Shown one piece after another: positions 7,706-23,833 of a stretch of DNA of 64,000 bases (its first letter is position 1; every line of letters begins with the position of its first letter). Position numbers and translations under genes: made by a program. The notes beneath the pieces were generated by a model. That model was not told the origin of the DNA, did no database searches, and saw nothing but the letters and a program-made list of their open reading frames with translations. This DNA is from Fodinicurvata sediminis DSM 21159 (GTDB taxonomy: Bacteria > Pseudomonadota > Alphaproteobacteria > Kiloniellales > DSM-21159): contig NZ_ATVH01000015.1 of assembly GCF_000420625.1 (NCBI RefSeq), positions 186,001-250,000 of the forward strand. Direction: 5' to 3'.

Positions 7706-7816
7706 ATGGAAACCATGGATCAGGAGCCTTGGCAGCTGGCGCCCACTCGCCTAGGGTCCCGGTGACATATCAACCGCCAGCCATGCGTGGCGCAGACAAA
7801 AAGGAATATTGATAGG

Positions 7817-8299
7817 ATGACCATCTCTGTAGGGGAACAGCTGCCCAGCGGGAAACTCTGGATGAAGACCGAAGACGGTGTGCAGGAGATCGACACCGAC
7901 GATTTCTTCGCCAACAAGAAGGTAGTGGTTTTCGCCCTGCCGGGGGCCTTCACCCCGACCTGCTCGGCCAAGCACCTGCCGGGTTACGTGGAGCATGCCC
8001 AGGAATTCTTCGACAAGGGCGTTGACGCCATCGTCTGCCTGTCGGTGAACGATGCCTTCGTCATGGATGCCTGGGGCAAGGACCAGAAGGTGAACGGCAA
8101 GGTCATGATGGTGGCCGACGGCAACGCCGACTTCTCCAAGGCGCTGGGCCTGTCCATGGACGTCAGTGCCCGGGGGATGGGCATCCGCTCGCAGCGCTAT
8201 GCCATGCTGGTGGAAAACGGCGTCGTGAAACTGCTGAACGTGGAAGAACCGGGCGCTTTCGAGGTTTCCGGCGCCGAGGCGATGCTGCGGGCGCTGTAG
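7817..8299 (+). CDS. Peroxiredoxin (Prx5-like redoxin)
   Basis: Thiol peroxidase that reduces hydrogen peroxide and alkyl hydroperoxides. The peroxidatic cysteine is C49 in the motif PGAFTPTCS, as in Prx5 enzymes, and VNDAFVMDAWGK is also typical. I chose the ATG at 7817 (160 aa), preceded by an A/G-rich AAGGAAT and directly matching the family N-terminus; an in-frame start at 7787 would add ten non-conserved residues. It lies 111 bases downstream of the disulfide reductase gene. Confidence 0.93.
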   Translation: MTISVGEQLPSGKLWMKTEDGVQEIDTDDFFANKKVVVFALPGAFTPTCSAKHLPGYVEHAQEFFDKGVDAIVCLSVNDAFVMDAWGKDQKVNGKVMMVADGNADFSKALGLSMDVSARGMGIRSQRYAMLVENGVVKLLNVEEPGAFEVSGAEAMLRAL

Positions 8300-8367
8300 G
8301 AGCCAGGAACGAAAAAAGGTAAGGGCGCCGCCGTTGGCCTGTGCCTACCACACCGCCCGTGCCAGGG

Positions 8368-8482
8368 TGCTTCGAGGCTCCGCGCTTACGCGCTCCGCAC
8401 CTCAGCATGAGGGTCGTAAGTGATTGATTCAAAAACGCTCTTATCCTGAGGTGCCCTGCCAAAGGCAGGGCCTCGAAGGGGC
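8368..8482. repeat. Intergenic nested palindromic repeat (TTCGAGGC...CACCTCAG type)
   Basis: Two arms with the boundary words TTCGAGGC and CACCTCAG face each other; the left arm is 8371-8411 and the right arm 8442-8478. Each arm contains its own small hairpin (CGCGCTTACGCG on the left, CCCTGCCAAAGGCAGGG on the right). This resembles the short dispersed palindromes with GCACCTCAGGATGAGG cores that I recall from many alphaproteobacterial genomes. It sits between convergent genes and shows no coding potential. Copy number elsewhere cannot be judged from one window. Confidence 0.6.
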
Positions 8483-8534
8483 TTTGCGCTGCCGGCGCCG
8501 TTTGCCTGTGATTACTCCGCAGTCTGTGTCGAAT

Positions 8535-8565
8535 CTCCTGAAGTATACTTCGGTACTTTCAGGAG
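8535..8565 (-). terminator. Hairpin downstream of the rnhA operon
   Basis: Arms CTCCTGAAGTA and TACTTTCAGGAG pair with one bulged base, 5 bases past the rnhA stop. There is no clear T-run on the minus strand, so it may act as a transcript 3' end or stability hairpin and not as a classical intrinsic terminator. Confidence 0.5.
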
Positions 8566-8569
8566 ATGC

Positions 8570-9037
8570 TCAAGAAGGCGTGCCCTCCGGCTTGTAGGCC
8601 TTGAGGGCTTCGCGGGCCAGGGCGTCGCAGCGTTCGTTCTCCGCGTGGCCGCTGTGGCCCTTGATCCAGTGCCAGTCGATCTCGTGCTGTTGTGTGGCCT
8701 CCAACAGACGCTCCCAGAGGTCGCGGTTCTTCACCGCCTTCTTGCCGGCGGTCTTCCAGCCGTTGCGCTGCCAGGAATGGATCCATTTGGTGATGCCGTC
8801 GCGCAGATAGACGCTGTCGGTTGTCAGCTCCACCCTGGATGGCCGCTTGAGGGCCTCGAGCGCGGCCACGGCGGCCATCAGTTCCATGCGGTTGTTGGTG
8901 GTCTCGGGCTCGCCGCCGGAGAGTTCCTTCTCGTGGCCGCGCCAGCGCAGGACGGCGCCCCAGCCCCCGGGACCGGGATTGCCGCTGCAGGCCCCGTCCG
9001 TGAAGATCTCGATCCGGTCGCTTTCCGGCGCACTCAT
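8570..9037 (-). CDS. rnhA: Ribonuclease HI
   Basis: Endonuclease that cuts the RNA strand of RNA-DNA hybrids. The four catalytic acidic residues are visible as D14 ([12 protein letters not shown]), E52 (NNRMELMA), D74 (TTDSVY) and D137 (ERCDALA), with the conserved WIKGHSGH just before the last. Length of 155 aa is normal. The start overlaps the stop of thrB by 4 bases, so it is the distal gene of an ispH-thrB-rnhA unit. Confidence 0.97.
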
Positions 9038-9999
9038 ACCTCGAGCCCATAGGCGCCGGGACCGGAAATGTCGCGGTGGAAGCGCAGCTTGCGCCAGTAT
9101 TCCAGTGGGTCCTTCGGTTCCACGAAGGCGCCGGGCGGGTGATTCAGCCAGTCATAGAGCCGGGTCAGCAGAAAGCGCAGCGCCGATCCGCGCGCCATCA
9201 GGGGCAGGGCCGTCAGCTCCTCCGCGGAGAAGGGACGGACCTTGCGATAGGCGGCTAGCAGCAGGCGCGCCTTGGTGGCGTTGAAGGCGCCGTCCGACTC
9301 GAAACACCAGGCGTTCATGCAGGTGGCCACGTCATAGGCATAGAAGTCGTTGCAGGCGAAATAGAAGTCGATCAGGCCCGAAAGCCGCTCGTCCCGGAAG
9401 AAGACATTGTCGGGGAAAAGGTCGGCATGGATGATTCCGCTGGGCAGATCCTGGGGCCAGCGTGCCTCCAGGTCCTGCAGCTCGCTTTCCAGTTCTCCGC
9501 CAAGGCCCGAGAAGACCTCGTCGGCGCGCGCCCGGCAGGTGTCCAGCAGGCCGCGCCAGCCGTCGATGGACAGGCGGTTGCGGCGATGGCCCTCGAAATC
9601 GCTTCCAGCCAGATGCAGGTGGGCCAGATGGTGGCCCACCTCCTGGCAGTGGAAGGGGTGGATGCGTCGCGGCCAGAGGCCATTCAGGAAGGTGATGACA
9701 GCGGCCGGCCGGCCGTTCAGCTCCTGCAGGGTTTCGCCGTCGCGGCTGTGGACCGGCGTGGGGCAGGGAATGCCACGCTGGGCCAGGTGCTCCATCAGGT
9801 TGACGAAGAACGGAAGCTCACTGCGTTCCACGCGCTTTTCATAGAGCGTCAGGATATAGCGCCCGCGATCGGTCTGCAGGAGGTAGTTGGAATTCTCCAC
9901 GCCCTCGGCAATGCCCTTGAAAGAGAGAATCTCGCCCAGGTCATAACGCGACAGGAAAGCGCGCAGGTCGGCATCCGTAACTTCTGTGTAAACGGCCAT
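9034..9999 (-). CDS. thrB: Homoserine kinase (ThrB, choline-kinase-like type)
   Basis: Phosphorylates homoserine to O-phosphohomoserine, the substrate of the threonine synthase encoded at 1421-2827. It belongs to the APH/choline-kinase-like ThrB form used by alphaproteobacteria and not the GHMP type: N-terminal [13 protein letters not shown], and the [11 protein letters not shown] catalytic loop followed by LIDFYFAC. Length is 321 aa with an ATG start. It lies 15 bases downstream of ispH and overlaps rnhA, so the three are probably cotranscribed. Confidence 0.95.
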
Positions 10000-10014
10000 G
10001 GGCTAAAAGGAATC

Positions 10015-10974
10015 TCAGGCGGCGTCGGTGTCGGCGAGGAGCCGGGGAAGCTTGAAGTGCACGTTCTCGCGCGATTGGTCGTTCAGTTCAACCTGAACGC
10101 GCTCGAACCGCGCGCGAAAAGCATCGATCACCTCTTCCACCAGAGCTTCGGGAGCCGAGGCGCCGGCCGTGATGCCGACAGTGGAGATATCCTGCAGCTT
10201 GTCCCAGGGAATGTCGCCGGCGCGCTCGATCAGGCAGGCATAGGGGCAGCCCGAGCGCTGTGCCACCTCGACAAGCCGCTGGGAATTCGAGGAGTTGGGC
10301 GCACCCACCACCAGCAGGGCATCGCATTGTCCGGCAATCTCCTTCACCGCCTGCTGGCGATTCGTGGTGGCGTAGCAGATATCCTCGCGCGCTGGCCCCT
10401 CGATATCGGGAAAGCGCGCCTGGAGCGCCTCCACGATGCCGGCCGTGTCGTCCACGGACAGGGTCGTCTGGGTGGCGTAGGCCAGTTTTTCGGGATCCTC
10501 TACCGTTATGCTGCGGGCATCCTCGATGGTTTCCACCAGCAGGATGGCGCCCTCGGGCAATTGGCCCATGGTGCCAATGACCTCCGGATGGCCGCGATGG
10601 CCGATCAGGATGACCTGGCGTCCGTTGCGATGGTGGCGCTCCGCCTCGCGATGGACCTTGCTGACCAGGGGGCAGGTGGCATCGATGTAGAGCAGTTCCC
10701 GCTCTGAGGCTTCCTCGGGCACGGCCTTGGGAACGCCGTGCGCGGAGAAGATCACGGGCACGTCGTCGGGTACTTCCGTCAGCTCGTCCACGAAGACGGC
10801 CCCCTTGGACTCGAGCGAATCCACGACGAAACGGTTGTGGACGATCTCGTGGCGCACATAGACAGGGGGGCCGTACTTGGCCAGGGCGCGCTCGACGATC
10901 TCGATGGCCCGCTCCACGCCGGCGCAGAAGCCGCGCGGGTTGGCCAGCAGCAGGGTCAGGGATGAGGTGCTCAT
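10015..10974 (-). CDS. ispH: 4-hydroxy-3-methylbut-2-enyl diphosphate reductase
   Basis: Iron-sulfur enzyme of the last step of the MEP isoprenoid pathway, yielding IPP and DMAPP. Conserved parts include [12 protein letters not shown] (first cluster cysteine), [11 protein letters not shown] (second cysteine), the [11 protein letters not shown] segment, and GAPNSSNS, which precedes the third cysteine region. I chose the ATG at 10974 (319 aa); an in-frame upstream ATG at 10992 adds only six residues. First gene of the ispH-thrB-rnhA group. Confidence 0.95.
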
Positions 10975-11185
10975 GAATCGTGCTCGCGCCAAAGTCTTGA
11001 CTGTTCCGACCCTACTCCAGGCCGGGGTTACATAAAAGAGATCATGATGATCCGGGGCTTTCGCAAGGGCGGGAAGGGAAGGCAGGCTTGCGCTGCGTTG
11101 CGGGACGTGCGAGACCAGACATCACGTTCAAGCACCCAGCGGTCGTTCAGAAGCTGCTGGCGATCCGTTATCAGGGAAGGCAAAG

Positions 11186-11719
11186 ATGCGAAAGATCTTG
11201 AGTGCGGTTGCGATTGTTCCCCTGCTTTCGGCCTGTTCGATCCTTGGCAAGGAGGAAAACCAGGCGAGCGAGCAGGACTGCCCCGGCGTGGTGGCGCTGG
11301 AGGAGACACGGGAGCAGGTCAGTTTCGTGGGCGAAAGCCGGGACCTGACCCAGGTGGATTACAGCGCCGAGCTGGTGGACGTGCGCTATGGCTGCGAATA
11401 CCGGGACGGTGGCAGCGAGATCGCCATGGAAATGGATGTGATTCTGGCCGCCAGTCGTGGGCCCGCCAATCAGGACCGTCAGGCCGAACTGAGTTATTAC
11501 CTGGCGATCGGGCATCCGGGCAATCCGCCGGAGATTCTTGTGCGTGAAGCCTACAGGGCCCCGGTCAGCTTCGAGGGCAACGAGAACACCGTGGATCTGA
11601 CTGACGAAGTCAGCATGACGCTGCCCCTGGCTGAGGGAGAAACTGCCAGCGACTATCGGGTTTTCGTGGGCCTGGTGCTGAGCCGCGACGAAGTGGAGTA
11701 CAACCGCAACAGCCGTTGA
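11186..11719 (+). CDS. Predicted lipoprotein, function unknown
   Basis: The 177-aa product has a lipoprotein signal: a short basic start, a hydrophobic stretch and the lipobox LLSAC, so it should be lipid-anchored in the envelope. The rest is acidic with no domain I recognise. The ribosome site GGGAAGG is about 8 bases before the ATG. It is followed 70 bases later by another small secreted protein on the same strand; the two may share a transcript. Confidence 0.75.
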   Translation: MRKILSAVAIVPLLSACSILGKEENQASEQDCPGVVALEETREQVSFVGESRDLTQVDYSAELVDVRYGCEYRDGGSEIAMEMDVILAASRGPANQDRQAELSYYLAIGHPGNPPEILVREAYRAPVSFEGNENTVDLTDEVSMTLPLAEGETASDYRVFVGLVLSRDEVEYNRNSR

Positions 11720-11789
11720 CCTGCCACGGCATGTGAGGCAACGGGTCCGCGGGTGACGACGCAAGCAACTGTCGAAGGGAAATAGGTTG

Positions 11790-12353
11790 ATGAAAATACT
11801 CTCCTGGTCATTGAGCGCCTTTTTGCTGGCGACCCCGGCCGCCGTGGCCGCCGAGACCATGCCGCTGCCCGAAACCGACTTCGAAGGCGAATGGGCCGAT
11901 CCGGGTGCAGACTCCAGCGGTATGAAGGTCCGCTATTCCAGCGACCTCGAGACCATGCGCGTCGAGGGCCAGTCCGAAGGGGCTTCCGGTGGCATGCTGC
12001 GCAACATGCGCAACGGCGAGATGACGATCTGGAGCGACCAGATGGGCGAGCAGGCCCTGCAGGGACAGATCGACGACATGGGCCTGATGGAAGGCGAGAA
12101 CACCGGCGAGACCAAGACGGTGAACGGCGAGACCTGTACCATCTGGGAGGTTCAGGGCTCACAGACCTGCCTGACCGACGATCACATCCCCATGGAAGTC
12201 GAGCATCAACAGGGCCATGCCGTGCTGCGCAACCTGCAACGCACCGCCCAGGACGACAGCTATTTCTCGCCGCCGGAGGGCCTCGAGATCGTGCCGATGC
12301 CCGATGCCATGAAGAAGATGATGGAGCAGGCCGGCGAAGAGGCGCCGTTCTGA
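11790..12353 (+). CDS. Predicted periplasmic protein, DUF4412-like
   Basis: The 187-aa product has a cleavable signal peptide (KILSWSLSAFLLATPAAVAA) and then a polar, methionine-rich body with motifs such as MRNGEMTIWSD and GETCTIWEV. These recall DUF4412-type periplasmic proteins, but this is a weak recognition. The ATG at 11790 is chosen over a TTG one codon upstream. A good hairpin follows the stop at 12368-12396. Confidence 0.7.
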   Translation: MKILSWSLSAFLLATPAAVAAETMPLPETDFEGEWADPGADSSGMKVRYSSDLETMRVEGQSEGASGGMLRNMRNGEMTIWSDQMGEQALQGQIDDMGLMEGENTGETKTVNGETCTIWEVQGSQTCLTDDHIPMEVEHQQGHAVLRNLQRTAQDDSYFSPPEGLEIVPMPDAMKKMMEQAGEEAPF

Positions 12354-12367
12354 GGACCGATCCTTAC

Positions 12368-12396
12368 AGGAACCGCTCCGCAGAGGGGCGGTTCCT
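12368..12396. terminator. Bidirectional terminator hairpin between convergent genes
   Basis: Arms AGGAACCGC and GCGGTTCCT pair around an 11-base loop. TAAAGTTTCC follows on the plus strand. It separates the rightward DUF4412-like gene from the leftward DUF1127-like gene, whose stop lies at the right arm. Confidence 0.6.
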
Positions 12397-12625
12397 AAAG
12401 TTTCCTTTGTGAAGCGATGACTTCTTGAGAGACTTGGGTGATGTCGCTTCGATCCAGGCCGATCTTCTCCAGGCTTGCATCATCGAAAGTATGCAAAACC
12501 CGCGCTGTGGCAGCGATTTGACCACGGCACAGCGCAGCTTTTGCGATTGCGATGAAGCTATAGCTTTGACGGGATGTGCTTTGTGCCAGGCCGTCAACAG
12601 AGTTGATAAAGGGGTCTGCAGTCAT
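12395..12625 (-). CDS. DUF1127-like small protein
   Basis: A 76-aa basic protein whose C-terminal half (LHTFDDASLEKIGLDRSDI) follows the DUF1127 pattern, where a leucine-rich stretch leads to a DIGLxRxDI-like core. These small proteins often act in post-transcriptional or phosphate/stress regulation, but the role here is unknown. The ATG has a strong ribosome site (AGGAAAGGG, about 6 bases upstream). A CRP-like palindrome lies about 340 bases upstream at 12964. Confidence 0.65.
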   Translation of the reverse strand: MTADPFINSVDGLAQSTSRQSYSFIAIAKAALCRGQIAATARVLHTFDDASLEKIGLDRSDITQVSQEVIASQRKL

Positions 12626-12732
12626 TGGTTTTCCCTTTCCTGCCGTTCAGATGGAGCTAAGCGGGCCGGCAACTTGCCAGGCAGGTCATCATCTGGCGTG
12701 CGGCGGCTCAGCAGCGCTCCGACTGGCAATTG

Positions 12733-12945
12733 TCAGGGTGCTGGGTAGATCGAGAGCAATTCCGACAAACCAACCCCTCTCCGGATAACGCCTTGAGGCA
12801 CAGGAATGGGCCGCACAGGAAAAGGTCCCATTGTCTCGCACCGCAGCCAGATGATGAACTCAAGCAGGGTTGGTATTGTCGCCCCCGCCATCTCTATCGT
12901 TTCTAGAAAAGCACCTTTATGGCTTTTGAAATAAAAGCATGGCAT
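12733..12945 (-). CDS. Possible small ORF, unrecognised
   Basis: Open frame of 70 codons from ATG 12945, or 52 codons from ATG 12891 (MAGATIPTLLEFIIW...). No ribosome site is convincing and I recognise no family. It lies just downstream (leftward) of the CRP-like palindrome at 12964-12979 and upstream of the DUF1127-like gene. It could be a real small gene or simply leader sequence. The rest of 12626-13284 shows no other gene that I can support. Confidence 0.2.
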   Translation of the reverse strand: MPCFYFKSHKGAFLETIEMAGATIPTLLEFIIWLRCETMGPFPVRPIPVPQGVIRRGVGLSELLSIYPAP

Positions 12946-12963
12946 TTGGCTGGGAACGAACGC

Positions 12964-12979
12964 TGTGAGATTTCTCACA
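12964..12979. promoter_or_regulatory. CRP-type palindrome (site 1)
   Basis: TGTGAGATTTCTCACA is an exact TGTGA-N6-TCACA match to the enterobacterial CRP consensus. It lies about 1.3 kb from the start of the CRP-type regulator gene at 13598-14320. The first 13 bases of the surrounding CGCTGTGAGATTT are identical to those of site 2 at 13562. Confidence 0.6.
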
Positions 12980-13284
12980 CTGGTTCATGAAAAAATGGCT
13001 GAATATCAGCCTGGGAAGGTGGATCAGAGTGGCTGTCGATTTTTTGTGATGCCTTCCTCCCGAGTCAGTCGTGACTCACGGCTGATGCTCAGATCTCAGA
13101 AGCCTGTACTTGGGCGTAGCTGACCCACATCGGGGCGCTTTTGCCATACGACTTGGAGAATATGCATGGTGCATGCACAAACGCGGTTCTGGAAAAACAC
13201 AGCACGTGCATATGACCTGATGGTGCAGGCCAGGATTATCGTTGTTCCCCGTATAAAGTCTGTCTTCAGGGTAAAAGTCTGCCG

Positions 13285-13485
13285 TCAGGTTCGTTTTGAC
13301 TGACTGTATAGATCCACCCTTTCCTGGTAGCGGAGTCTGGGCTTGTTGATCTGGGCTTCACAGAGGCCAATATCCTCGAGCAAATGCACGCTGAGTTTGT
13401 GCAAACCGGTTCGATTGCTGTAACGGAGTGGCGCGCTTGGAATCACGGCGTTTGCTCGCTTCGAGCGACTGTTCTCGATTTCCAT
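13285..13485 (-). CDS. DUF1127-like small protein
   Basis: A 66-aa basic protein; residues around LHKLSVHLLEDIGLCEAQI match the DUF1127 core. A very strong ribosome site (AAGGAGG) lies 8 bases before the ATG, supporting a real gene despite the small size. A CRP-like palindrome is centred about 87 bases upstream of the start. Function unknown; it may be a regulated partner of the other DUF1127-like gene at 12395-12625. Confidence 0.6.
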   Translation of the reverse strand: MEIENSRSKRANAVIPSAPLRYSNRTGLHKLSVHLLEDIGLCEAQINKPRLRYQERVDLYSQSKRT

Positions 13486-13564
13486 CTCGATGCCTCCTTA
13501 TGCTCAGAGAAGTGTCCTTGAGGACCATGAGCAGAAAGCATCACACCTAATCTTCTCTGCGCGC

Positions 13565-13580
13565 TGTGAGATTTAACACA
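13565..13580. promoter_or_regulatory. CRP-type palindrome (site 2)
   Basis: TGTGAGATTTAACACA matches TGTGA-N6-TCACA at 9 of 10 fixed positions. It lies between the end of the CRP-type regulator gene and the start of a DUF1127-like gene, where it could activate the latter. Confidence 0.55.
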
Positions 13581-13597
13581 GTGCTTGGAAGTTCTTC

Positions 13598-14320
13598 TCA
13601 ACTCTTTCGTGGTGTCCCGAGAGAGGGCTCCCTGGCATTGAGAAGCAGACGGGACAGGGCCTCCACGTCGTTGATGACCAGGGCCTTCTTGCCCTGACGT
13701 TCCAGAAACCCGTGCTGCCTCAATTGGGAAAGTTCGCGTGAAACGGCTTCCCGATGGGTGGAAACGCGTGCGGCAATCTGCTCCTGGGTTGGCGCTTCAG
13801 CGATCATGGCCTTGTTATTTCTGATACCGCTCTGATGCGCCATGCGCAGCAGCTCAGCCTGGATACGCCGGTTCACCCCCAGTGTGGAGAATTCGAAAAT
13901 TCGGGCTGAAAGTTGGCGTATGACGGCAGCCATCTCCTGAAGCAGATGCTCCATGATAATCGGGTAAGCATGGCAGAAAGCCCTGAAATCCGTGTGGGAA
14001 AGACAGGCAAGCTGGCAGTCGCTGCCTGCCGTTACGGAAGCCGAGCGTGGAGCGCCGTCCAGGGCGGAAAATTCACCGAATTGCTGACCCGGTCCCAATT
14101 CGCGGAAGTCCACTTGCCGGCCATCCATGCTGAAAACCAGGACAGATACAAGTCCGTGGACAATGAAGAAGACGGTTCTGGATGCATCGAACTGGCCAAT
14201 GATCTCTTCGCCCGCCCGATGAGTCTGCCAGTGGCATTTATCCTCAATCTGTGTGATAACCTGCGCGGGCAGGCCACGGAACAACTTGATGTGCGATAAA
14301 GTGCGATCGGGGTCGTTCAT
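13598..14320 (-). CDS. CRP/FNR family transcriptional regulator, CRP-like
   Basis: A 240-aa regulator with an N-terminal cyclic-nucleotide-binding domain and a C-terminal winged helix. The phosphate-binding cassette is well kept: G82, E83 and the P91-R92-S93 group (FGEFSALDGAPRSAS), as in cAMP binders. The recognition helix REAVSR (R190, E191, R195) matches E. coli CRP RETVGR, predicting TGTGA half-sites; two such palindromes are at 12964 and 13565. No FNR-type cysteine cluster is seen. It starts 72 bases after the end of the cyclase gene on the same strand, so cotranscription is likely. Confidence 0.9.
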   Translation of the reverse strand: MNDPDRTLSHIKLFRGLPAQVITQIEDKCHWQTHRAGEEIIGQFDASRTVFFIVHGLVSVLVFSMDGRQVDFRELGPGQQFGEFSALDGAPRSASVTAGSDCQLACLSHTDFRAFCHAYPIIMEHLLQEMAAVIRQLSARIFEFSTLGVNRRIQAELLRMAHQSGIRNNKAMIAEAPTQEQIAARVSTHREAVSRELSQLRQHGFLERQGKKALVINDVEALSRLLLNAREPSLGTPRKS

Positions 14321-14391
14321 TTTACCATCCCGCCCTTTTCATCGGGTGATGGAGCGTTGCTGCCTCGCTCGCAGATTTGCGGGCGAGTCAA

Positions 14392-17300
14392 TCATGACAG
14401 TTTTGACAGGTACGCGGCGGCACGCTTTACGTCTTCTGTCTCTCCTCCTTCCGTAAACCAGTCGTGAAGCGGCTGCAGCAATTGCTGCGCTTGCCTGAAC
14501 CTGCCCTGCCGGATCCAGAGATTCGCCAAGCGGTTTGCCGCACGGAGTTCCAGGAGTCTCGCCTGCTGGTGTCCTGCAACTGTCATGGAGTCTCGAAGCA
14601 GGTTTTCTGCGGTTTCCAGGGGTTCGTTCTGCTGCGCCAAGTACAGTTCCCCCTGCAGCCGGCGAAGATTGGCATCAAGGTGCCCAACAGCCGTCCCTTC
14701 CAGCTCGCTTTCGATTCGCTCGGCCAATTCCAGTCCTTCGGTGGTGCGTCCATCTTCGGCCAGGGCTTTGAGGAGAAGTATCTGAGAATGAAGCATCAGA
14801 AGCTTCTGGTTTTTGCCATCAAGTCTGGCAATTCCCTCGCGAATCTGTGTGATGCCGGCGTTTCGCTCACCCAGGGAGAAGCGGGCACTGCCACCAAGAA
14901 CAACAGCCAAGCCTGCCCAGAGTGGCAGGCCGTATCTTGTTGCCGTCTGGAGAGCAGAGTCCGCGAATTCACAAGCCTTGGAATAGTCTCCCCTTTCGAA
15001 GGCGACCTCTGCACGCCAGGTCATGGCCTCCACGTAACTCATGGTGTGGGCGGCGTTCTCGGCATAGATTTGGGCGTGCCTAGTCCAGTCGACGGCTTGA
15101 TCTAGATAGCCGAGTTGCAGGAGCGCGCGTCCTCGATAGGCAGCGCAGGTCATGCAAGCGTCATTCTCGTAGCAGGGCCCCAGATCCTGCGCGGCCTGAT
15201 TTGCGTAATTATCCAAACCTCTGGAGACAAGATCATGGGCTTGCACAAAATCTCCGGCGAAATAGGCAACGACGGCAGAGGCTCTGTAGGCCTCAAGTTG
15301 GTGCCTTGGAGCACACTGGTCGGAGACGGTTTCCATAAGACGATTGGCCATTTCACTTGCCGTCTTGAGGTCGGCGCGTTCCTGGAAGTGAAGCCGTAAG
15401 CCCTGGAAAATCGGTACGGCAGCTGTGCGTACACCAAGCTTTCGCGCCAGCTCGGCGGCCTTTTCGTGTGCCGTGGCCACGGTCTTTGCGCCAGCACCTT
15501 GCGTGCTGATAAGGCTGGAGCCCAGAAGGGTCAGAAGCTCCAGTTCCTCATGGTCTCGTGGTTCGCTTTCCGGCAGATCCGCGAGGCAATCCAGGGCATT
15601 CTGGAAGTGGGCCGCGGCTTCACTTGCGGAAGAGCGCTCAGAGGCCAGCAGGCCTGCTTTCTTCCAATACAGCAAGGCTTCGCGTGTACGCTTGCCTTCG
15701 GTGAAATGCTGCGCAACCAGTTCGGGCTGCTCAGCCACAAGCTCCGGGAAGTCCTCAAGCAGGATATCTGCAAGGCGGGCATGAAGCTGCTGGCGCCGGC
15801 TTCTAAGCAGGCTCTTGTAAGCGGTGTCCTGAATAAAGGCATGCTTGAACCGAAAGCTGGCTTCCGGAGGGGTGCCGCGCGTGATGACCAGATCCGAATC
15901 CATGAGTTGCTGTGTGATGTCCAAAAGGACGGGTTCCTGATAGGGGGCAAGTTGTGCAATCAGGTCATAGGTGAACTCACGACCGATGACGGCTCCGATC
16001 TGCGCCAGCTCCTTGACGACAGGGTCACGGTCCAGACGCGCCATAAGAAGGTCCTGCAAGGTAGAAGGTATCGATAGCAGATCTGCCTGGTATGCAGCGT
16101 TCTGTCCTTCTTCGCGATGTTGCGGGTAATTCATTTCCAGCAGCATCTTGGTCAACTCTTCTATGAAGAACGGTATGCCGTCAGTCTTGACCAGGATGTG
16201 CTGTATGACCTCCTGAGGCAGCTGTCGCTCGCCACTGACCCTACGAATCATTGTCACGACTTCTTTGCGGCTGAGGCGGGTGAGGCTGATTGAGGTAAGA
16301 TGGGCATGGCTGCCGATCTGGGCAGGCTCATGACTGCGTGATGTCGCCAGAAGCAAGACGGGAAGATGCTGCAGGCGATCGGCAATCTGACTGAAGAACT
16401 CGGCAGATGTCGGGTCCAACCAGTGTGAGTCTTCCAGGACCATGATCACAGGACAGCTTTTTGATAATCCGGCAATCTGCTCGAAGAGGAACTCGAAGAT
16501 ACGCGCTTTCTTTGCATCCGCAGAAAGCTCAAGTGAGCTGTAAGGAGGGGCAAAAGGCACTGCAAGCAAGGAAGCAAGCAGGGGAACCACTTGCGCACTG
16601 TCTGCATGAGTCTTCTGCACCATTTCCTCAAGCCGTTGGAGTTTGAGCTCCTCCGGCTCTTCGCTGGTCATGCCGGCGGCATGCTTGAGGGATTCTATGA
16701 CCGGATGGAGCGCGCTGTTCGTATGATAAGGGGAGCAGTGATACTGCAGGCGGTGGAATTTTTCCTGCCCAAGTCTTTCGACCAGGGCGCCAATCAGACG
16801 TGACTTACCAATTCCTGGCGGGCCGGTCAGCAGCACGACCTGCCCCTCACCGTTCTTTGCCAGAGCCAAGCGGTTCAGCAGGAGCTCCATCTCGCTCGTG
16901 CGCCCGACCAGTGGTGTGGGCTGATACCCGTGCATGGCTTCGAAGCGGCTTCGAACATCGCTTTCGCCTGCAACTTCCCAGATATGCAGGTTCTGCGAGA
17001 AACCCTTGAGTTCATGAAGGCCCAGATCGGCCAGTTCAAATAGGCCACCCAGGAGCCGCCGTGTATGCGGACTGATCACCACTGTATCTGGGTGCGCGAG
17101 ACTCTGAAGACGGGCCGCAAGATTCGGCGTTTCTCCAAAGGCGGCCTCTTCCCATGTCTCATCGCTCGTATCGCCGACGACGACGAGACCTGTTGCAATG
17201 CCAATGCGGCAACTCAACTTCTCCGTCATGTCGGGGTAAAGCATCAGGCCTCCGGAGATGATCTCCAAAGCGGCCCGCACAGCCCGTTCTCCATCATCTT

Positions 17301-17820
17301 CATGCACGCGCGGCCAGCCGAAATAGACCATGATTCCGTCCCCCATGTAGCTGGCGATATGTCCGTCCCAGCGCTTGATCACTTGGGCACAGGCCTTGTG
17401 ATATTGCCTGATGACCTGGCGCATTTCCTCGGGATCCAGCCTGGCGGCGAGCGAACTGGATCCGACAAGGTCACAGAACATCACGGTGATCTGCCGCCTT
17501 TCGGCACGTGTGCCTTGGGATGGTCCGTCCTCGTCCTCTTGGGAGGGCGCGCTTCTGCTCTGCGCTGTTGCAATTCCATCCTGCTGCGCCAGGGCTCTCA
17601 GGAGTTTCTTTCTGGGGCCGAGCGGAAGGCCCAGGGATTTCAGGTCCTGCTCCCCGAGTTCCGGCAGGATATCCAGATCGATTTCCTGTTGCCGGAACAG
17701 ACTCTCATAGTGTTCCAGTCCCAATCCCTGCAGCCAGATGCTCAGATCCAGTGTCCCCTCCCAGCCCTGTTTCTTGTTGAATAATATCTGCACACAGGCA
17801 TTGAAAGAAGCTGTCGCCAT
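14392..17820 (-). CDS. SAM / class III nucleotidyl cyclase / AAA-type ATPase / TPR protein
   Basis: An 1142-aa multidomain signalling protein. Order: SAM-like domain (about 22-80), class III cyclase domain (about 110-260), P-loop ATPase (about 300-560) and a long helical TPR-like tail. The cyclase keeps both metal aspartates (D117 in FCDLVGSS, D161 in YMGDGIM) and the catalytic N233/R237 pair in GETPNLAARL. Thr231 replaces the usual Asp, a mark of class IIIb, and the layout resembles mammalian soluble adenylyl cyclase. Walker A is GPPGIGKS (333-340); a Walker B-like MVLEDSHW follows. The product is inferred to be cAMP because the next gene is CRP-like. Confidence 0.9.
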   Translation of the reverse strand: MATASFNACVQILFNKKQGWEGTLDLSIWLQGLGLEHYESLFRQQEIDLDILPELGEQDLKSLGLPLGPRKKLLRALAQQDGIATAQSRSAPSQEDEDGPSQGTRAERRQITVMFCDLVGSSSLAARLDPEEMRQVIRQYHKACAQVIKRWDGHIASYMGDGIMVYFGWPRVHEDDGERAVRAALEIISGGLMLYPDMTEKLSCRIGIATGLVVVGDTSDETWEEAAFGETPNLAARLQSLAHPDTVVISPHTRRLLGGLFELADLGLHELKGFSQNLHIWEVAGESDVRSRFEAMHGYQPTPLVGRTSEMELLLNRLALAKNGEGQVVLLTGPPGIGKSRLIGALVERLGQEKFHRLQYHCSPYHTNSALHPVIESLKHAAGMTSEEPEELKLQRLEEMVQKTHADSAQVVPLLASLLAVPFAPPYSSLELSADAKKARIFEFLFEQIAGLSKSCPVIMVLEDSHWLDPTSAEFFSQIADRLQHLPVLLLATSRSHEPAQIGSHAHLTSISLTRLSRKEVVTMIRRVSGERQLPQEVIQHILVKTDGIPFFIEELTKMLLEMNYPQHREEGQNAAYQADLLSIPSTLQDLLMARLDRDPVVKELAQIGAVIGREFTYDLIAQLAPYQEPVLLDITQQLMDSDLVITRGTPPEASFRFKHAFIQDTAYKSLLRSRRQQLHARLADILLEDFPELVAEQPELVAQHFTEGKRTREALLYWKKAGLLASERSSASEAAAHFQNALDCLADLPESEPRDHEELELLTLLGSSLISTQGAGAKTVATAHEKAAELARKLGVRTAAVPIFQGLRLHFQERADLKTASEMANRLMETVSDQCAPRHQLEAYRASAVVAYFAGDFVQAHDLVSRGLDNYANQAAQDLGPCYENDACMTCAAYRGRALLQLGYLDQAVDWTRHAQIYAENAAHTMSYVEAMTWRAEVAFERGDYSKACEFADSALQTATRYGLPLWAGLAVVLGGSARFSLGERNAGITQIREGIARLDGKNQKLLMLHSQILLLKALAEDGRTTEGLELAERIESELEGTAVGHLDANLRRLQGELYLAQQNEPLETAENLLRDSMTVAGHQQARLLELRAANRLANLWIRQGRFRQAQQLLQPLHDWFTEGGETEDVKRAAAYLSKLS

Positions 17821-17949
17821 GCAATTTTCAGATGCTAAAGGGAGAATCTTGCAGCCCGGAGCAAGCGATAACTATCTGTCAGCGAAGAAAAAAACCTGTA
17901 CAGCTAAGCTATGCAGATTATTGGAAGATGTCTGAGATAATCGAAGTTA

Positions 17950-19185
17950 CTACTTTTGCGTCGCTCTGAAATCCCGCCGAAAGGCGAGCCCATAAAGCGT
18001 TATGCCGACCAGGCAATAGGCGGCACAGCCGGCCAGAAGGGCGTTGACGCTGACGCCGAAGTCGATCAGCAGGCCCAGCAGGCCGGGGGCAAGGGCTGTT
18101 GAAATGACCATCAGGGCGGCCGCAACAGCACGAATGGAGCCCAGGTGGCTGGTGCCGTAGGTCTCGGCCCACATGGCCGTGGTGACGGAGGTGTTGGAGC
18201 CGGCAGTGAGGCCGGCCAGCAGCATGTAGACCAGGGCGATCCAGGGCGAATTGCCAAGCGAGATAACCAGGCAGGCCAGGGCCAGAGGAATCAGATAGAA
18301 GGGCATCAGGCGGCGCGCCGTCAGGCGGTCGATCAGGGCGCCCGAGGCCAGGTTGGCGCAGACCGAGCTGATGGCAAAGGCGACGAAGCAGGTGGCGAAC
18401 CAGGCGAGTGCCCAGCCCTTCACCTCTGTGATGTGGATCTGGTGAAAGAAGACACCGGTGTTGATGAAGCCGGAGGCCATGAGACCCGGCAGCATCATCA
18501 GGAAGAGCGGCTGGCGCACGAAGGGCCCGAGCCGGAAACTGGCGCCGCCCTTCGGCTGAAAACTACCGGCCCGCCCGCCGTGCAGCAGGAACAACACCAG
18601 AGGCAGCAGCACGCAGAGCAGGAAGAGCGCGGCCAGCAGCCAGGTGGTGCGCCAGCCGACGGCCGCTGTTACCAGCACGACGGTCAGCGGGAAGACGGCT
18701 TCGCCGGCGGGATTGCCCATGGAGGCAAAGGCGATGGCCTTGCCGCGGCTGCGTTCGAAGTGGCGGGCCATACTGGTGATGGCGGCGTGCACCATCAGCC
18801 CCTGTCCACAGAGCCGCAACAGGAAAAGCGCGATGCCCAGCATGATGACGCTCTGCACCGAAAAGGTCAGCAGGCAGGCGAGTGCGAGGCCCAGGAGTGT
18901 GGCGATGACGAAGCGGCGCAGCGGCATGCGGTCGAGCTGGGCGCCCAGCTTGATCATGCAGAGTCCGCTGGCCAGCGTGGCAATGGAGTAGACCGTGCCT
19001 ATGCCGCCATGGCTGAGGTCGAAGGCGGCGCGGAAATCGGCATTGAACAGCGAGATGAAGAAGGTCTGGCCGAAGCTGGAGAAGAAGGCCAGGAGGAAAC
19101 CGAAGGCCAGCAACTTGAGGCGCTCGGGGAGCGCAAAGGCGGTTTCGGCCGCGCCAGTGGAGGAAGGTTCCTGTTCGAGTGACAT
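17950..19185 (-). CDS. MFS transporter
   Basis: A 411-aa protein with about 12 hydrophobic segments and the major facilitator loop 2-3 motif in modified form (GAQLDRMPLRRF). A second related motif (GALIDRLTARRLMPF) between TM8 and TM9 marks the two-fold repeat. The substrate cannot be told. It lies upstream of the cyclase gene on the same strand with a 129-base gap. Confidence 0.85.
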   Translation of the reverse strand: MSLEQEPSSTGAAETAFALPERLKLLAFGFLLAFFSSFGQTFFISLFNADFRAAFDLSHGGIGTVYSIATLASGLCMIKLGAQLDRMPLRRFVIATLLGLALACLLTFSVQSVIMLGIALFLLRLCGQGLMVHAAITSMARHFERSRGKAIAFASMGNPAGEAVFPLTVVLVTAAVGWRTTWLLAALFLLCVLLPLVLFLLHGGRAGSFQPKGGASFRLGPFVRQPLFLMMLPGLMASGFINTGVFFHQIHITEVKGWALAWFATCFVAFAISSVCANLASGALIDRLTARRLMPFYLIPLALACLVISLGNSPWIALVYMLLAGLTAGSNTSVTTAMWAETYGTSHLGSIRAVAAALMVISTALAPGLLGLLIDFGVSVNALLAGCAAYCLVGITLYGLAFRRDFRATQK

Positions 19186-19536
19186 GGGCCCTTGGTGTAG
19201 CGGGCCTGCCCCGGGGAGCCAAGGGCAATGACCCCAACAAGGGGATCACAGGAAGCTTGTTGAGGCAGGAAAGACCGTGCGTGATCGGTTTCGAATTGTT
19301 CGGACTGTAGTACTTTCAAGGCTTTATGGGTGAATGCTCACCTGCGCTATCTATGTGATGATTTAAGAGTACAACTGTTCTTTATTTGCTATTTTTTGTG
19401 TTTCACAAGAATTCAAAATTAAAAAAGCCATGTTGTTTTTGAATACGAGGTATTCGCGCAGTTTTCTTAACCAATTCAAAACGAATAAGGAGCATAAACC
19501 GGGTATCTTTAATCCCTCCTTCCCTAAGGGCATACG
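19186..19536. other. AT-rich intergenic region before the chemotaxis receptor
   Basis: 351 bases between divergent genes, clearly richer in A+T than the surroundings. It holds a short hairpin (GAATAC-GAG-GTATTC near 19441-19455) and the TTAACC element described separately. No ORF is supported here. Confidence 0.5.
19467..19481 (+). promoter_or_regulatory. TTAACC element upstream of first chemotaxis receptor
   Basis: TTAACCAATTCAAAA lies 70 bases before the start codon. The same layout (TTAACC, three bases, TTCAAAA) occurs 74 bases before the second receptor. TTAACC resembles the CtrA half-site common in front of alphaproteobacterial motility genes; that link is inference. Confidence 0.45.
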
Positions 19537-21573
19537 ATGACAACGACGACAGGACGTCCCGCCGTTTCTTTCAAGAACCTGAAAGTCGGTTCGAAGATCT
19601 TCAGTGGCTTTGCCGTGATTCTGGCCTTTCTGCTTATCCTGGGTGGGGCCGCTTACTATAGCTCCATTCAGTCTTCCGAAAATCTCTCACTTTACAGGAA
19701 CGAAAGCAGGATCGCGGAGTTGAGCGGTCAGGCGGATGCAGAGCTGCTGCGTGCGCGCCTTTCCGCCAGCACCTTCCTGTCTTCAGGCGGGGAAGACTAT
19801 ATTGAGGCTTTCCAGGAAGCGGATCGCAAGCTGAGCCAGAATTTCACCAGCGCCCGCGAGTTGATGGCGAAGGAGGAAAGTCGTGCCGCCGTCGACCAGA
19901 TCCTGGATATCCAGCAGAACTACACCGGCAACTTTGAACGCCTGGTGGAACTGCGAGGTCTGCGGGAGCAACTGACCAGCGACATCATCAACGACATCGG
20001 GGCCGAAACGCGCGCCCTGATCACGAGCATTCAGGAAGCGGAACTGAATGGCGAAAACCTGCGCAACATCGCGATTGCCGCCGACATCAACAACGATTTT
20101 CAGATGCTGCGCGCTGTCGCGGCGCGTTTTCTCCAGGACCAGAATGCGGCCGCGCGCGAAGAGGTGACGTCTGGACTGCCCGATCTGCAGTCCCGCCTGA
20201 GTGGCCTTAGGGAGCAGACACTCGTTCCCGGCCAGGAGGACCGAATCGGCAAGGCCCTTGCTCTTATGGACGAATACCAGGAAGGCTTTTCCGAACTCAG
20301 TTCGACAATCGCACAGATGAATGACACGGTCGCCACCATGCTGGACCAGGGGGCGCAGGTTATTTCTTTTTCCGGAAACATCCGTGAGGTGGCGGCCAGG
20401 GAGCAGGACAGGGCGTCTGCCCAGGCCGAAAGTGCCGCGGACATGGCCGAGCAGCTTTCCCTTGGCCTTTCCGGTGGCGCCCTCGTCCTGGGCCTGCTGG
20501 TGGCCTGGCTGATTGCGCGTGCCATTACCCGGCCGGTGGTGTCCATGACCGGCGCCATGAACCGCCTTGCGAGTGGAGACGAGAGCGTCGAGATCCCGGC
20601 GGTCGGCCAGCGTGACGAGATCGGCCAGATGGCCGGAGCGGTCCAGGTCTTCAAGGACAACATGATCCGTTCGCGTGAGCAGGAAGCCAAGGCGGCTGAG
20701 CAGGAAAAGCGGGCCGAAGAGGAGCAGAAGCGTGCCATGAATGCCATGGCGGACCGTTTCGAGGAGACGGTGGGACAGATGGTTCAGGCCATCGGCTCCA
20801 TGGCCAACGAGCTGGAAGCAGCGGCGCAGACCATGACCTCCTCGGCCGAGGAGACCAACTCCCAGGCGGCAAGTGTGTCGGCGTCCTCGCTGCAGGCCTC
20901 CACCAATGTACAGACCGTGGCCAGTTCGGCCGAGGAGATGGCGGCCTCCATCCGGGAGATCAGCCAACAGGTTTCCACGTCCGCCAGGACGGCCAATGCC
21001 GCGGTCGAGGACGCGGACCGTACCTCGGAAACGGTGAACGTGCTGGCCGGCTCGGCCGAGAAGATCGGCGATGTGGTGAAGCTGATCCAGGACATTGCCG
21101 AGCAGACGAACCTGCTGGCGCTGAACGCCACCATCGAAGCGGCGCGGGCCGGTGAGGCCGGCAAGGGCTTTGCCGTGGTGGCCAGCGAGGTGAAGAACCT
21201 GGCCAACCAGACCGCCAAGGCGACCGAGGAGATTTCCCAGCAGATCTCCGGCATGCAGGGAGTCACCAGCGAGACGGTCGGGGCGATCGACAAGATCAGC
21301 CAGCGCATCCGGGAGAGCCAGGAGATCGCCAGTTCCATCGCAGCCGCGATGGAGGAGCAGGATGCGGCCACCGGCGAGATTACCCGCAACGTTCAGCAGG
21401 CGGCCGAAGGCACCAACGAGGTGACCAGTGCTATCGAGCAGGTCAGCCAGGCGGCCGCCGAGGGTGGCTCTGCCGCCGAACAGGTGCTGTCCAGCGCCCG
21501 TCAGTTGGGCGAGACAGCCGGCCAATTGCAGAAGGGCGTCGATGACTTCCTGAAGAACGTCCGGGCCGCTTGA
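19537..21573 (+). CDS. Methyl-accepting chemotaxis protein (copy 1)
   Basis: A 678-aa inner-membrane chemoreceptor. TM1 is near residues 17-36, followed by a periplasmic all-helical sensor of about 265 residues (HBM-like), TM2 near 305-328, a HAMP domain, and a cytoplasmic coiled-coil signalling domain. The hairpin tip [28 protein letters not shown] starts near residue 521 and is canonical. The ligand is unknown. A near twin of equal length follows at 21797, identical over long stretches of the signalling region but divergent in the sensor. Confidence 0.93.
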
Positions 21574-21796: not shown

Positions 21797-23833
21797 ATGA
21801 GTGAGAAGAAAACTTCGCGCGCAGGCTTTTTTGCAAACCTCAGGATCAGCACCAAGATCTTCACCGGCTTTGCCATCGTCCTGGTCCTGATGGCAACACT
21901 GGGTATCGTGTCATTTTTGAGTTCCAAGCAGGGTTCGGAGAACCTGGCGACTTATTCCGCGCAAGGAGAGATCGTCGAGCTGACGGGATCCGCGCAATCC
22001 GAGATTGTCCGTGCGCGCCTGGCGGTGACGAGCTTCATGAACTCGGGCGCCAGCGCTGATGTCGAGGCCTTCAGGGAAGCAAACCAGGGTGCGATCGAAG
22101 ATTTCGAGGCGGCCCAGAAGCTGATGCAGACCCAGGAAAACCAGGCGACGGTCGAGCAGATCCTGAGCAACCAGCGCAGTTACAGCGACCTCTTCGAATA
22201 CCTGGTTAGCCTGCGCAAGCAGCGGGAAGGCATCATCGCCGCGACCCTGAACGCCCTGGGCGCCCAAGCGCGCGCCAGCATCACGGAATTGCAGGAAGCC
22301 GAGGTTGCGGGCGAGAACTTGCGCAACATCGGGATCATCGCTGGTGTCAACAACGACTTCCAGATGCTGCGCACGGTCGCGGCGCGCTATCTTCAGGGTG
22401 AGAATACAGCCGATCGTGACGAGGTCCTGGAGCTGTTGCCGGATCTGCGTGAACGCTTGGGCCAGTTGGCGGAGACCACGCTGGTTCCAGACCAACCCCA
22501 GAAGATCAATGCCACGATCGCCATGCTGGAAAGCTATGAACGTGGCTTTGGCCGCCTGGCAGACACCCTGGACTCTCTGAACGAGCAGGCAGCCGAGATG
22601 ACGGAGCTGGGACAGGAAACCCTGGCTCTGGCCACAGATATTCAGACTGTTGCCAGAGGCGAGCAGACTCAGGTTGCGGAGGCAGCCGAAACGCAGTCGA
22701 CCCTGGCTGAACAGCTGGCATTGGGCTTGACGGCGGGGGCCGTTGTCCTGGGCCTGATCGTGGCTTGGCTGATTGCGCGGGTGATTACCCGGCCGGTCAA
22801 GGCCATGACGGGAACGATGGACAGCCTGGCTGATGGTGACCTTTCGGTCGAAATCCCGGCGGTGGGACAGAAGGACGAGATCGGCCAGATGGCAGAATCG
22901 GTCCAGGTCTTCAAGGACAACCTGGTTCGCACACGGGAAATGGAGGCCGAGGCCGAAGCTCAGAAGCACAAGGCCGAGGAAGAGAAGAAGCAGGCCATGA
23001 ACGACATGGCGAATCGCTTCGAGGAGACGGTCGGTCAGATGGTTCAGGCCATCGGCTCCATGGCCAACGAACTGGAGGCCGCGGCACAGACCATGACGTC
23101 TTCGGCCGAGGAAACGAACTCCCAGGCCACCAGTGTCGCAGCTTCGGCAACCCAGGCCTCGACCAACGTGCAGACGGTGGCGAGTTCGGCCGAGGAGATG
23201 TCCGCCTCGATCAAGGAGATCAACCAGCAGGTCTCGACCTCGTCCAAGACGGCAGATTCGGCGGTCGAGGATGCCGATCGTACCTCCGAGACGGTGAATG
23301 TGCTGGCCGGATCGGCCGACAAGATCGGCGATGTGGTGAAGCTGATCCAGGACATTGCCGAGCAGACGAACCTGCTGGCGCTGAACGCCACCATCGAGGC
23401 GGCGCGGGCCGGTGAGGCCGGCAAGGGCTTTGCCGTGGTGGCCAGTGAAGTGAAGAATCTGGCCAACCAGACGGCCAAGGCCACCGAGGACATCTCGCAG
23501 CAGATATCCGAGATGCAGGGCGTGACCAGCGAGACGGTCGAGGCAATCCAGAAGATCAGCCAGCGCATCCGGGAGAGCCAGGAGATTGCCGGTTCCATCG
23601 CAGCCGCAATGGAGGAGCAGGATGCCGCCACTGACGAGATCTCGCGCAACGTTCAGCAGGCCGCCGAGGGTACCAATGAGGTCTCCAGTGCCATCGAGCA
23701 AGTCAGCCAGGCGGCCTCCGAGGGCGGCTCTGCCGCCGAACAGGTGCTGTCCAGCGCCCGTCAGTTGGGCGAGACGGCTGGTCAATTGCAGAAGGGCGTC
23801 GATGACTTCCTGAAGAACGTGCGGGCTGCATGA
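21797..23833 (+). CDS. Methyl-accepting chemotaxis protein (copy 2)
   Basis: A 678-aa chemoreceptor paralogous to the preceding gene and exactly the same length. TM1 is near residues 17-37, the helical periplasmic sensor follows, TM2 is near 305-328, then HAMP and the signalling coiled coil. The signalling region is almost identical to copy 1 at protein level, with runs of identical DNA over 100 bases (for example around 23330-23450), while the sensor differs widely. This points to duplication with homogenisation of the output domain. It probably senses a different ligand. Confidence 0.93.

Follow-up and report, generated by a model that had tools for sequence, protein, structure and literature searches.

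A cassette of about 5.6 kb in the genome of Fodinicurvata sediminis DSM 21159 appears to encode a horizontally acquired, largely self-contained cyclic-nucleotide circuit, a reading to which we give, on sequence comparison, a probability of roughly 0.65. The cassette lies in a 64-kb stretch of contig NZ_ATVH01000015.1 (positions 186,001 to 250,000; hereafter the window) and brings together a class III nucleotidyl cyclase gene, a gene for a CRP-family regulator, two candidate CRP sites and two small DUF1127-like genes. The genes, the pocket residues of the regulator, the sites, the rarity of those sites and the absence of the whole as a single block from a genome of the same genus (G001) are features of the DNA itself. 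From these features we infer a course of sensing, synthesis, binding, activation and small-protein action. On sensing a signal through its ATPase-TPR part, the cyclase would start to make a cyclic nucleotide (cyclic AMP, cAMP, possibly cyclic GMP, cGMP). This nucleotide would bind to the CRP-family protein whose gene lies 71 bp downstream of the cyclase gene. In its loaded form the protein would bind both palindromes and switch on the small genes behind them, acting from the site at 13565 on the gene for a protein of 66 amino acids (aa) and from the site at 12964 on a 52-aa open reading frame (ORF) and the 76-aa gene. The DUF1127-like small proteins would then be the output, acting on another host protein. 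Support for such a circuit is comparative: the link between cyclase, CRP and sites is favoured because all are missing from G001 as one block, because CRP-cyclase adjacency recurs, because sites crowd the CRP genes of relatives, and because DUF1127-like genes stand near such sites at two other loci (L096 and L235).

On the minus strand the order is cyclase, CRP, the site at 13565, the 66-aa gene, the site at 12964, the 52-aa ORF and the 76-aa gene (Table 1). The coordinates, the Pfam matches and the 71 bp between the cyclase stop and the start of the CRP gene on the same strand bear out an earlier note on this DNA, which had described a class III cyclase gene followed by a CRP-type gene. An AAGGAGG Shine-Dalgarno-like sequence precedes the ATG of the 66-aa gene.

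Table 1. Features of the cassette, in window coordinates
Feature	Coordinates	Strand	Basis
Cyclase gene (SAM, class III cyclase (CHD), AAA_16 ATPase, TPR-like; 1142 aa)	14392..17820	-	Pfam; metal Asp, Asn and Arg kept, substrate Lys replaced by Ser
CRP-family regulator gene, 240 aa; G82, E83, R92, S93, HREAVSR	13598..14320	-	Pfam; alignment with 13 relatives
Candidate CRP site 2, TGTGAGATTTAACACA	13565..13580		Second-best matrix score in 64 kb; 1 of 37 genome sites with at most one mismatch
Small DUF1127-like gene, 66 aa	13285..13485	-	DUF1127 16.1 bits (below cut-off); outside-window profile E = 1.6
Candidate CRP site 1, TGTGAGATTTCTCACA	12964..12979		The genome's only perfect TGTGA-N6-TCACA
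ORF of 52 aa between site 1 and the 76-aa gene; possible leader, putative coding	12733..12891	-	Sequence and spacing
Small DUF1127-like gene, 76 aa	12395..12625	-	No Pfam match; outside-window profile E = 3.9e-4
Whole cassette, about 5.6 kb	12354..17971		Missing from same-genus genome G001; GC 55.7%

The two sites have 13 identical bases in common (CGCTGTGAGATTT), as the earlier note had seen. A genome-wide scan, which that note had proposed as a check, found TGTGA-N6-TCACA without mismatch once in the 3.69-Mb genome, at 12964, and 37 sites with at most one mismatch, including 13565 (14 for a reversed control pattern). Chance would put about 0.01 such sites in the 1.2 kb that follow the CRP gene, where two are seen. 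Within two mismatches of TGTGAGATTTCTCACA the genome holds the two cassette sites only and G001 holds none; at three mismatches there are a few places in both genomes, several of them alike, and therefore no regulon beyond the cassette is visible at that level. A site matrix built from 22 distinct sites of relatives, with the window excluded, ranked 12964 first (24.7 bits) and 13565 second (16.3 bits) over the 64 kb, with the third place at 9.6; because its training sites were picked by at most one mismatch to the CRP consensus, the matrix contributes mainly spacer information. Random sequence reaches 16.3 bits 1.6 times per Mb and never reached 24.7 in 12 Mb, and a chance origin of the two sites was rejected on the genome counts and matrix ranks. 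The centre of site 13565 lies 87.5 bp upstream of the ATG of the 66-aa gene, and that of site 12964 lies 80.5 bp upstream of the ATG of the 52-aa ORF, distances that leave room for a CRP-activated promoter; the ATG of the 76-aa gene is 346 bp from site 12964. One terminator was predicted in 12300-14500, on the minus strand at 13011-12997, just before site 12964 (shuffles, mean 2.2). A small RNA at site 12964 was also considered and rejected, with no Rfam match up to E 0.1 across 12000-18200.

G001 is the sole same-genus genome in the comparison and also the closest relative searched. Its contig C14 matches the window on both sides of the cassette (67430-70781 with window 9000-12353 at 88%, and 70909-72461 with window 17972-19516 at 78%), and only 127 bp separate the two matches, so that 5.6 kb including both sites and both small genes are missing. 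In G001 neither the CRP (E <= 1e-15) nor the cyclase (E <= 1e-60) found a match. The GC content of the cassette is below that of the whole window (55.7% vs 62.1%), and thus the cassette was likely gained as one unit by horizontal acquisition. Third-position GC is 0.63-0.64 in the cyclase and CRP genes vs 0.85 in the neighbouring MFS gene. Beside the cassette are two tandem ORFs, both of 678 aa (19537-21573 and 21797-23833), the first of which is a chemoreceptor by Pfam whose signalling part matches many places in relatives.

The cyclase has Pfam matches to SAM_1 (1.1e-13), Guanylate_cyc (PF00211; 6.2e-22) and AAA_16 (6.8e-20), along with a weak TPR match below the cut-off. With 78.5 bits against a PF00211 cut-off of 21.9 it belongs to the class III nucleotidyl cyclases, and it is the one PF00211 match in the whole genome. 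Both metal-binding Asp residues, the transition-state Asn and the Arg are kept in a column read-out of 96 aligned rows, in which some loci are counted twice. The enzyme probably makes a cyclic nucleotide.

The regulator belongs to the CRP/FNR superfamily, matching cNMP_binding (2.1e-18; 66.5 bits, cut-off 27.5) and HTH_Crp_2 (5.7e-13; 49.1 bits, cut-off 27). Its translation contains the pocket residues G82, E83, R92 and S93 and a recognition helix reading HREAVSR, exactly as previously claimed, and is predicted to bind a cyclic nucleotide. G82 and R92 are invariant and E83 is at least 90% conserved over 14 aligned rows, the 13 relatives being 39-47% identical to the cassette protein. It is not an E. 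coli-type CRP equivalog (NF008732; 81.5 bits, NCBIfam cut-off 266). Against solved structures it scored better with 3d0s (9e-20) and 1hw5 (1e-17), the CRPs of M. tuberculosis and E. coli, both cAMP receptors, than with 7pza (4e-13), the Clr of S. meliloti; on these scores an assignment as a Clr ortholog was rejected.

An alignment-based scan of named genomes returned 521 relatives of the CRP, of which the best 80 were kept as loci; the same genome-contig scan with the single CRP as query returned no relatives. The 80 loci belong to Alpha-, Beta- and Gammaproteobacteria and a few metagenome-assembled genomes (MAGs) labelled otherwise. For 59 of them the flanks reach at least 3 kb either side of the CRP frame, and in 21 of these 59 a cyclase-domain frame lies no more than 3 kb away (gaps measured between stop-to-stop frames). 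In the 50 loci with about 7-8 kb or more of flank on each side, cyclase genes are concentrated close to the CRP (16 at 0-2 kb, 2 at 2-4 kb, 3 at 4-6 kb and 0 at 6-8 kb). Cyclase linkage, mapped onto a tree of 85 CRPs, takes 17 changes (8 when weakly supported branches are disregarded), below all of 500 shuffles (mean 26.5), so that it appears clustered, yet repeatedly gained and lost; this tree has long end branches including that of the window CRP, which is not placed, its bootstrap is unsettled, and its unlinked rows include loci with short flanks. Where examined with Pfam, the cyclases next to CRP genes are diverse in architecture, with TPR (L040), CHASE2 (L129), AAA and TPR (L166), a zinc ribbon and AAA (L208) or an alpha/beta-hydrolase (L235). 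A fixed pairing of the AAA-TPR cyclase type with a CRP was unsupported; both genes occur in 16 of 166 collected sequences, some of which are overlapping copies of one locus, and in 1 of 35 loci around cyclase relatives.

CRP-type sites are likewise concentrated beside these CRP genes. With at most one mismatch, 26 sites occur in the 109 kb within about 600 bp of a CRP gene vs 17 in 1.085 Mb farther away (80 loci), an approximately 15-fold difference in density in which six Pelagibius-type loci and duplicated MAG loci carry full weight. The near zone is richer in intergenic DNA, which is met in part by two control patterns (2 and 0 near CRP genes, 5 and 3 far). Many of the relatives' sites have a common spacer, as in TGTGGGATTTGTCACA from four Pelagibius-type loci and TGTGGCATTTCTCACA from G024. 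In six Pelagibius-type loci (L171, L173, L177, L181, L182 and L186) a CRP-type site lies about 160-260 bp downstream of the CRP frame, and no cyclase frame was found in the fetched flanks. Three other loci have short ORFs with a hydrophobic stretch after CRP-type sites immediately downstream of the CRP gene (L202 9775-10044, L216 9812-10021 and L230 9920-10105), and small membrane proteins may be a further type of output.

Plasmids also carry such pairs. We found 38 plasmid records with a CRP relative, and in 3 of the 5 inspected an annotated cyclase adjoins it. These are plasmids of Azospirillum brasilense, Tistrella mobilis and Methylocystis, with CRP relatives 38-41% identical to the cassette protein; unlike the cassette, the cyclase is divergent and of approximately 566-590 aa. 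A Sinorhizobium medicae plasmid has a cyclase about 3.8 kb from the CRP relative, and a Microvirga plasmid has none listed within 4 kb. On the T. mobilis plasmid pTM2 (L247), there is an overlap between the CRP gene of the divergent pair and a gene whose annotation reads CBASS cGAMP-activated phospholipase.

Two genes resembling DUF1127 had been proposed in the earlier note. Both genes are where it placed them; their likeness to the family is weaker than it stated. The 66-aa protein scores 16.1 bits against the Pfam DUF1127 (PF06568) gathering cut-off of 23.3, the 76-aa protein has no Pfam match up to E 0.01, and neither is among the three DUF1127 matches listed for the genome. A DUF1127 profile built outside the window from six proteins, two of them (from L235) Pfam-confirmed, was run on 47,868 small ORFs of the collected loci. 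Beyond the training rows and their copies it found four distinct ORFs up to E = 5, namely the 76-aa protein (3.9e-4), an ORF of L096 (0.045), the 66-aa protein (1.6) and a second L096 ORF (3.7); the training proteins came from a search seeded partly with window segments, so that this profile is not fully independent. A general enrichment of DUF1127 near CRP genes was not shown: apart from those in the window, in L096 and the nearer gene of L235, the DUF1127 genes of the collected loci lie 2.6-7.4 kb from a CRP gene or in loci where no CRP was found. The case for a DUF1127 output thus comes from the window, L096 and L235. Neither titles nor abstract openings in our literature search linked DUF1127 with cAMP or Crp.

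Synteny, another check put forward in the earlier note, brought together all four kinds of elements (cyclase, CRP, sites and DUF1127-like genes) at two other loci only, one with a different cyclase architecture (L235) and one with distant CRPs (L096). L096 (G013:C8:3000-22000) belongs to another family of the same order and within 6100-15620 contains a SAM-cyclase-AAA gene together with two CRP genes and two DUF1127-like genes, as well as four perfect sites and an Arg-rich ORF of 28 aa; four of the six perfect CRP sites of its genome fall within 8.3 kb here. A perfect site separates the first DUF1127-like ORF from the SAM-cyclase-AAA gene, which runs divergently, and another separates the second, which stands behind the 28-aa ORF, from a divergent CRP gene. 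The DUF1127 matches are weak (E 0.045, without a Pfam match, and 3.7). Since the L096 CRPs are only approximately 24-25% identical to the window CRP, the two loci seem to have been put together separately from parts of like kinds. The second locus, L235 in Bradyrhizobium niftali, holds within about 6 kb a hydrolase-cyclase, a CRP, two DUF1127 genes that are genuine family members (6e-10 and 7e-10), and two sites, of which one is perfect and the other has a mismatch. Partial versions also occur: G024 has a CRP, a one-mismatch site, an acyl-CoA-dehydrogenase-like gene (named by eye) and a cyclase.

Several observations weigh against the proposed circuit. In the cyclase, Ser replaces the adenine-selecting Lys and Ala its Asp/Thr partner (the Ala was read by eye from the printed motif, the tally having used the adjoining column), a combination that does not qualify it as an adenylate cyclase proper and that may therefore mean a product other than cAMP. 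The Lys column of the 96 rows contains Lys 47 times, Arg 31 and Ser 5, with the window protein accounting for three of the Ser rows; the CRP-linked cyclase of G024 also has Ser here. The product could be cAMP, cGMP or both. The previous suggestion that the cyclase feeds a CRP controlling the small proteins is partly supported by comparative linkage, without its commitment to cAMP. A nucleotide that is cGMP, or cGMP with cAMP, in a circuit otherwise as proposed is a serious though lesser possibility that overlaps our reading. The better scores of the CRP against 3d0s and 1hw5 than against 7pza speak against it; the non-canonical substrate residues favour it, as does the best structure match of the cyclase domain, 2w01, which is a guanylyl cyclase although its entry names it an adenylate cyclase. 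CgrA of R. centenum, moreover, uses cGMP at TGTGA-N6-TCACA (PMC4681086).

The same two substitutions would fit a CRP that controls the small genes with a ligand from elsewhere or none, the altered cyclase being mainly an ATPase-type sensor and the adjacency a product of cassette history. Consistent with this, 38 of the 59 CRP loci have no cyclase frame within 3 kb and tblastn found a CRP in just one of the 35 loci around cyclase relatives (L096), so that neither gene needs the other nearby. We nevertheless consider such a ligand supply unlikely, given that the metal Asp residues, Asn and Arg are kept, that this is the genome's only PF00211 cyclase (other cyclase classes were not searched) and that adjacency recurs with differing cyclase architectures. 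Still less probable is that another Crp/Fnr regulator uses the sites and that their position near the cyclase is accidental. The genome has 11 Crp-type helix-turn-helix (HTH) family matches, the cassette CRP included and some of them weak, and another such protein could use the sites. G001, which lacks the cassette CRP, counts 32 sites when one mismatch is allowed (control 12) and has a perfect one as well, so that the genome-wide total is independent of this CRP and other regulators may be the users of such sites; its site at C9:145381 scores 16.8, above 13565, and the matrix score alone is thus no proof of use by the cassette CRP. The absence of any other perfect site in the window's genome points the other way, as do the joint absence of sites, CRP and cyclase from G001 despite its 14 Crp-type HTH matches and the clustering of sites, in other genomes, beside CRP genes from this subfamily. 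The remaining difficulties concern the parts of the circuit. Both small proteins miss the Pfam DUF1127 cut-off, a 110-aa ORF separates the perfect site of L235 from the nearer DUF1127 gene, no sigma-70-type promoter matches were found in 12300-14500 (shuffles, mean 1.0), and upstream of the cyclase a CRP site is missing even with one mismatch allowed, so that R. centenum-type feedback is not seen. With one same-genus genome for comparison, gain of the cassette by the window's lineage is more probable than its loss from G001.

More tentatively, the cassette may belong to a class of transferable, insulated Alphaproteobacteria cassettes, repeatedly assembled from different cyclases and CRPs, where small DUF1127-like effectors answer to a cyclase with a CRP of its own. 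If so, an incoming locus would supply everything from sensor and second messenger to regulator, sites and output, and could rewire a host pathway via small proteins. CRP with cAMP is mostly encountered as a global regulator; in this genome the sites that can be detected for one CRP all fall in a cassette missing from the same-genus genome searched, which would make it a clean case for how a cell separates one cyclase-regulator pair from others. The cassette further hints that cyclic nucleotides may act on small DUF1127-type proteins, and indicates where the outputs of the many AAA-TPR cyclases might be sought.

Literature searches on cyclase-CRP neighbourhoods and SAM-TPR cyclases turned up no listed paper that looked relevant. 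The earlier note knew of no described system of this arrangement; similar ones are in fact described in R. centenum (PMC4681086) and S. meliloti (PMC4222275). As far as the available text of the sources goes, the R. centenum locus consists of RC1_3784 and RC1_3785-gcyB-gcyC-cgrA, with gcyB and gcyC described as genes for putative, non-catalytic cyclase subunits, and CgrA has 295 binding sites genome-wide (PMC4681086). RC1_3784, a small ORF divergent from the cluster at a footprinted TGTGA-N6-TCACA site, is activated by CgrA. This locus and the cassette both cluster a CRP homolog with cyclase genes and place a small ORF at a TGTGA-N6-TCACA site; in R. centenum the ligand is cGMP, binding is footprinted rather than predicted, and the site also drives the cyclase operon in feedback, whereas no such site was seen upstream of the window's cyclase. 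The exact RC1_3784 site occurs in 2 of 385 genomes, in L252 with a CRP and a cyclase and in L251 without them. In L252 (G112:C42, 1-3016) CRP gene, site and cyclase share 3 kb, the cyclase-domain gene beginning about 90 bp past the exact CgrA site, and site 12808 of L096 is letter-identical to the CgrA site. In S. meliloti, again from the available text, the cyaD1 locus includes clr and its target smc02178, with a Clr site about 68 bp upstream of the start, and Clr takes both cAMP and cGMP (PMC4222275, PMC10127613). It resembles the cassette in holding a cyclase, a Crp-like regulator and a regulator-controlled gene named without a function, with its site, at one locus; its cyclases are receptor-like, and the window CRP scores better against E. 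coli-type CRP structures. For the candidate output, the available text of PMC12501420 reports small Agrobacterium DUF1127 proteins that bind the sensor kinase PhoR. They are like the window proteins in size and in a DUF1127-type C-terminal motif and unlike them in that the window proteins fall below the family cut-off; that text describes no CRP control and mentions cAMP once, as a two-hybrid read-out. With a cyclase, a CRP and a site before a candidate target at one locus, the cassette is, judged by its gene content, a variant of the published local cyclase-CRP circuits of the R. centenum and S. meliloti type. What is new here, at the level of predicted parts, is the lack of close site copies elsewhere in the genome, the AAA-TPR cyclase and the DUF1127-like candidate output.

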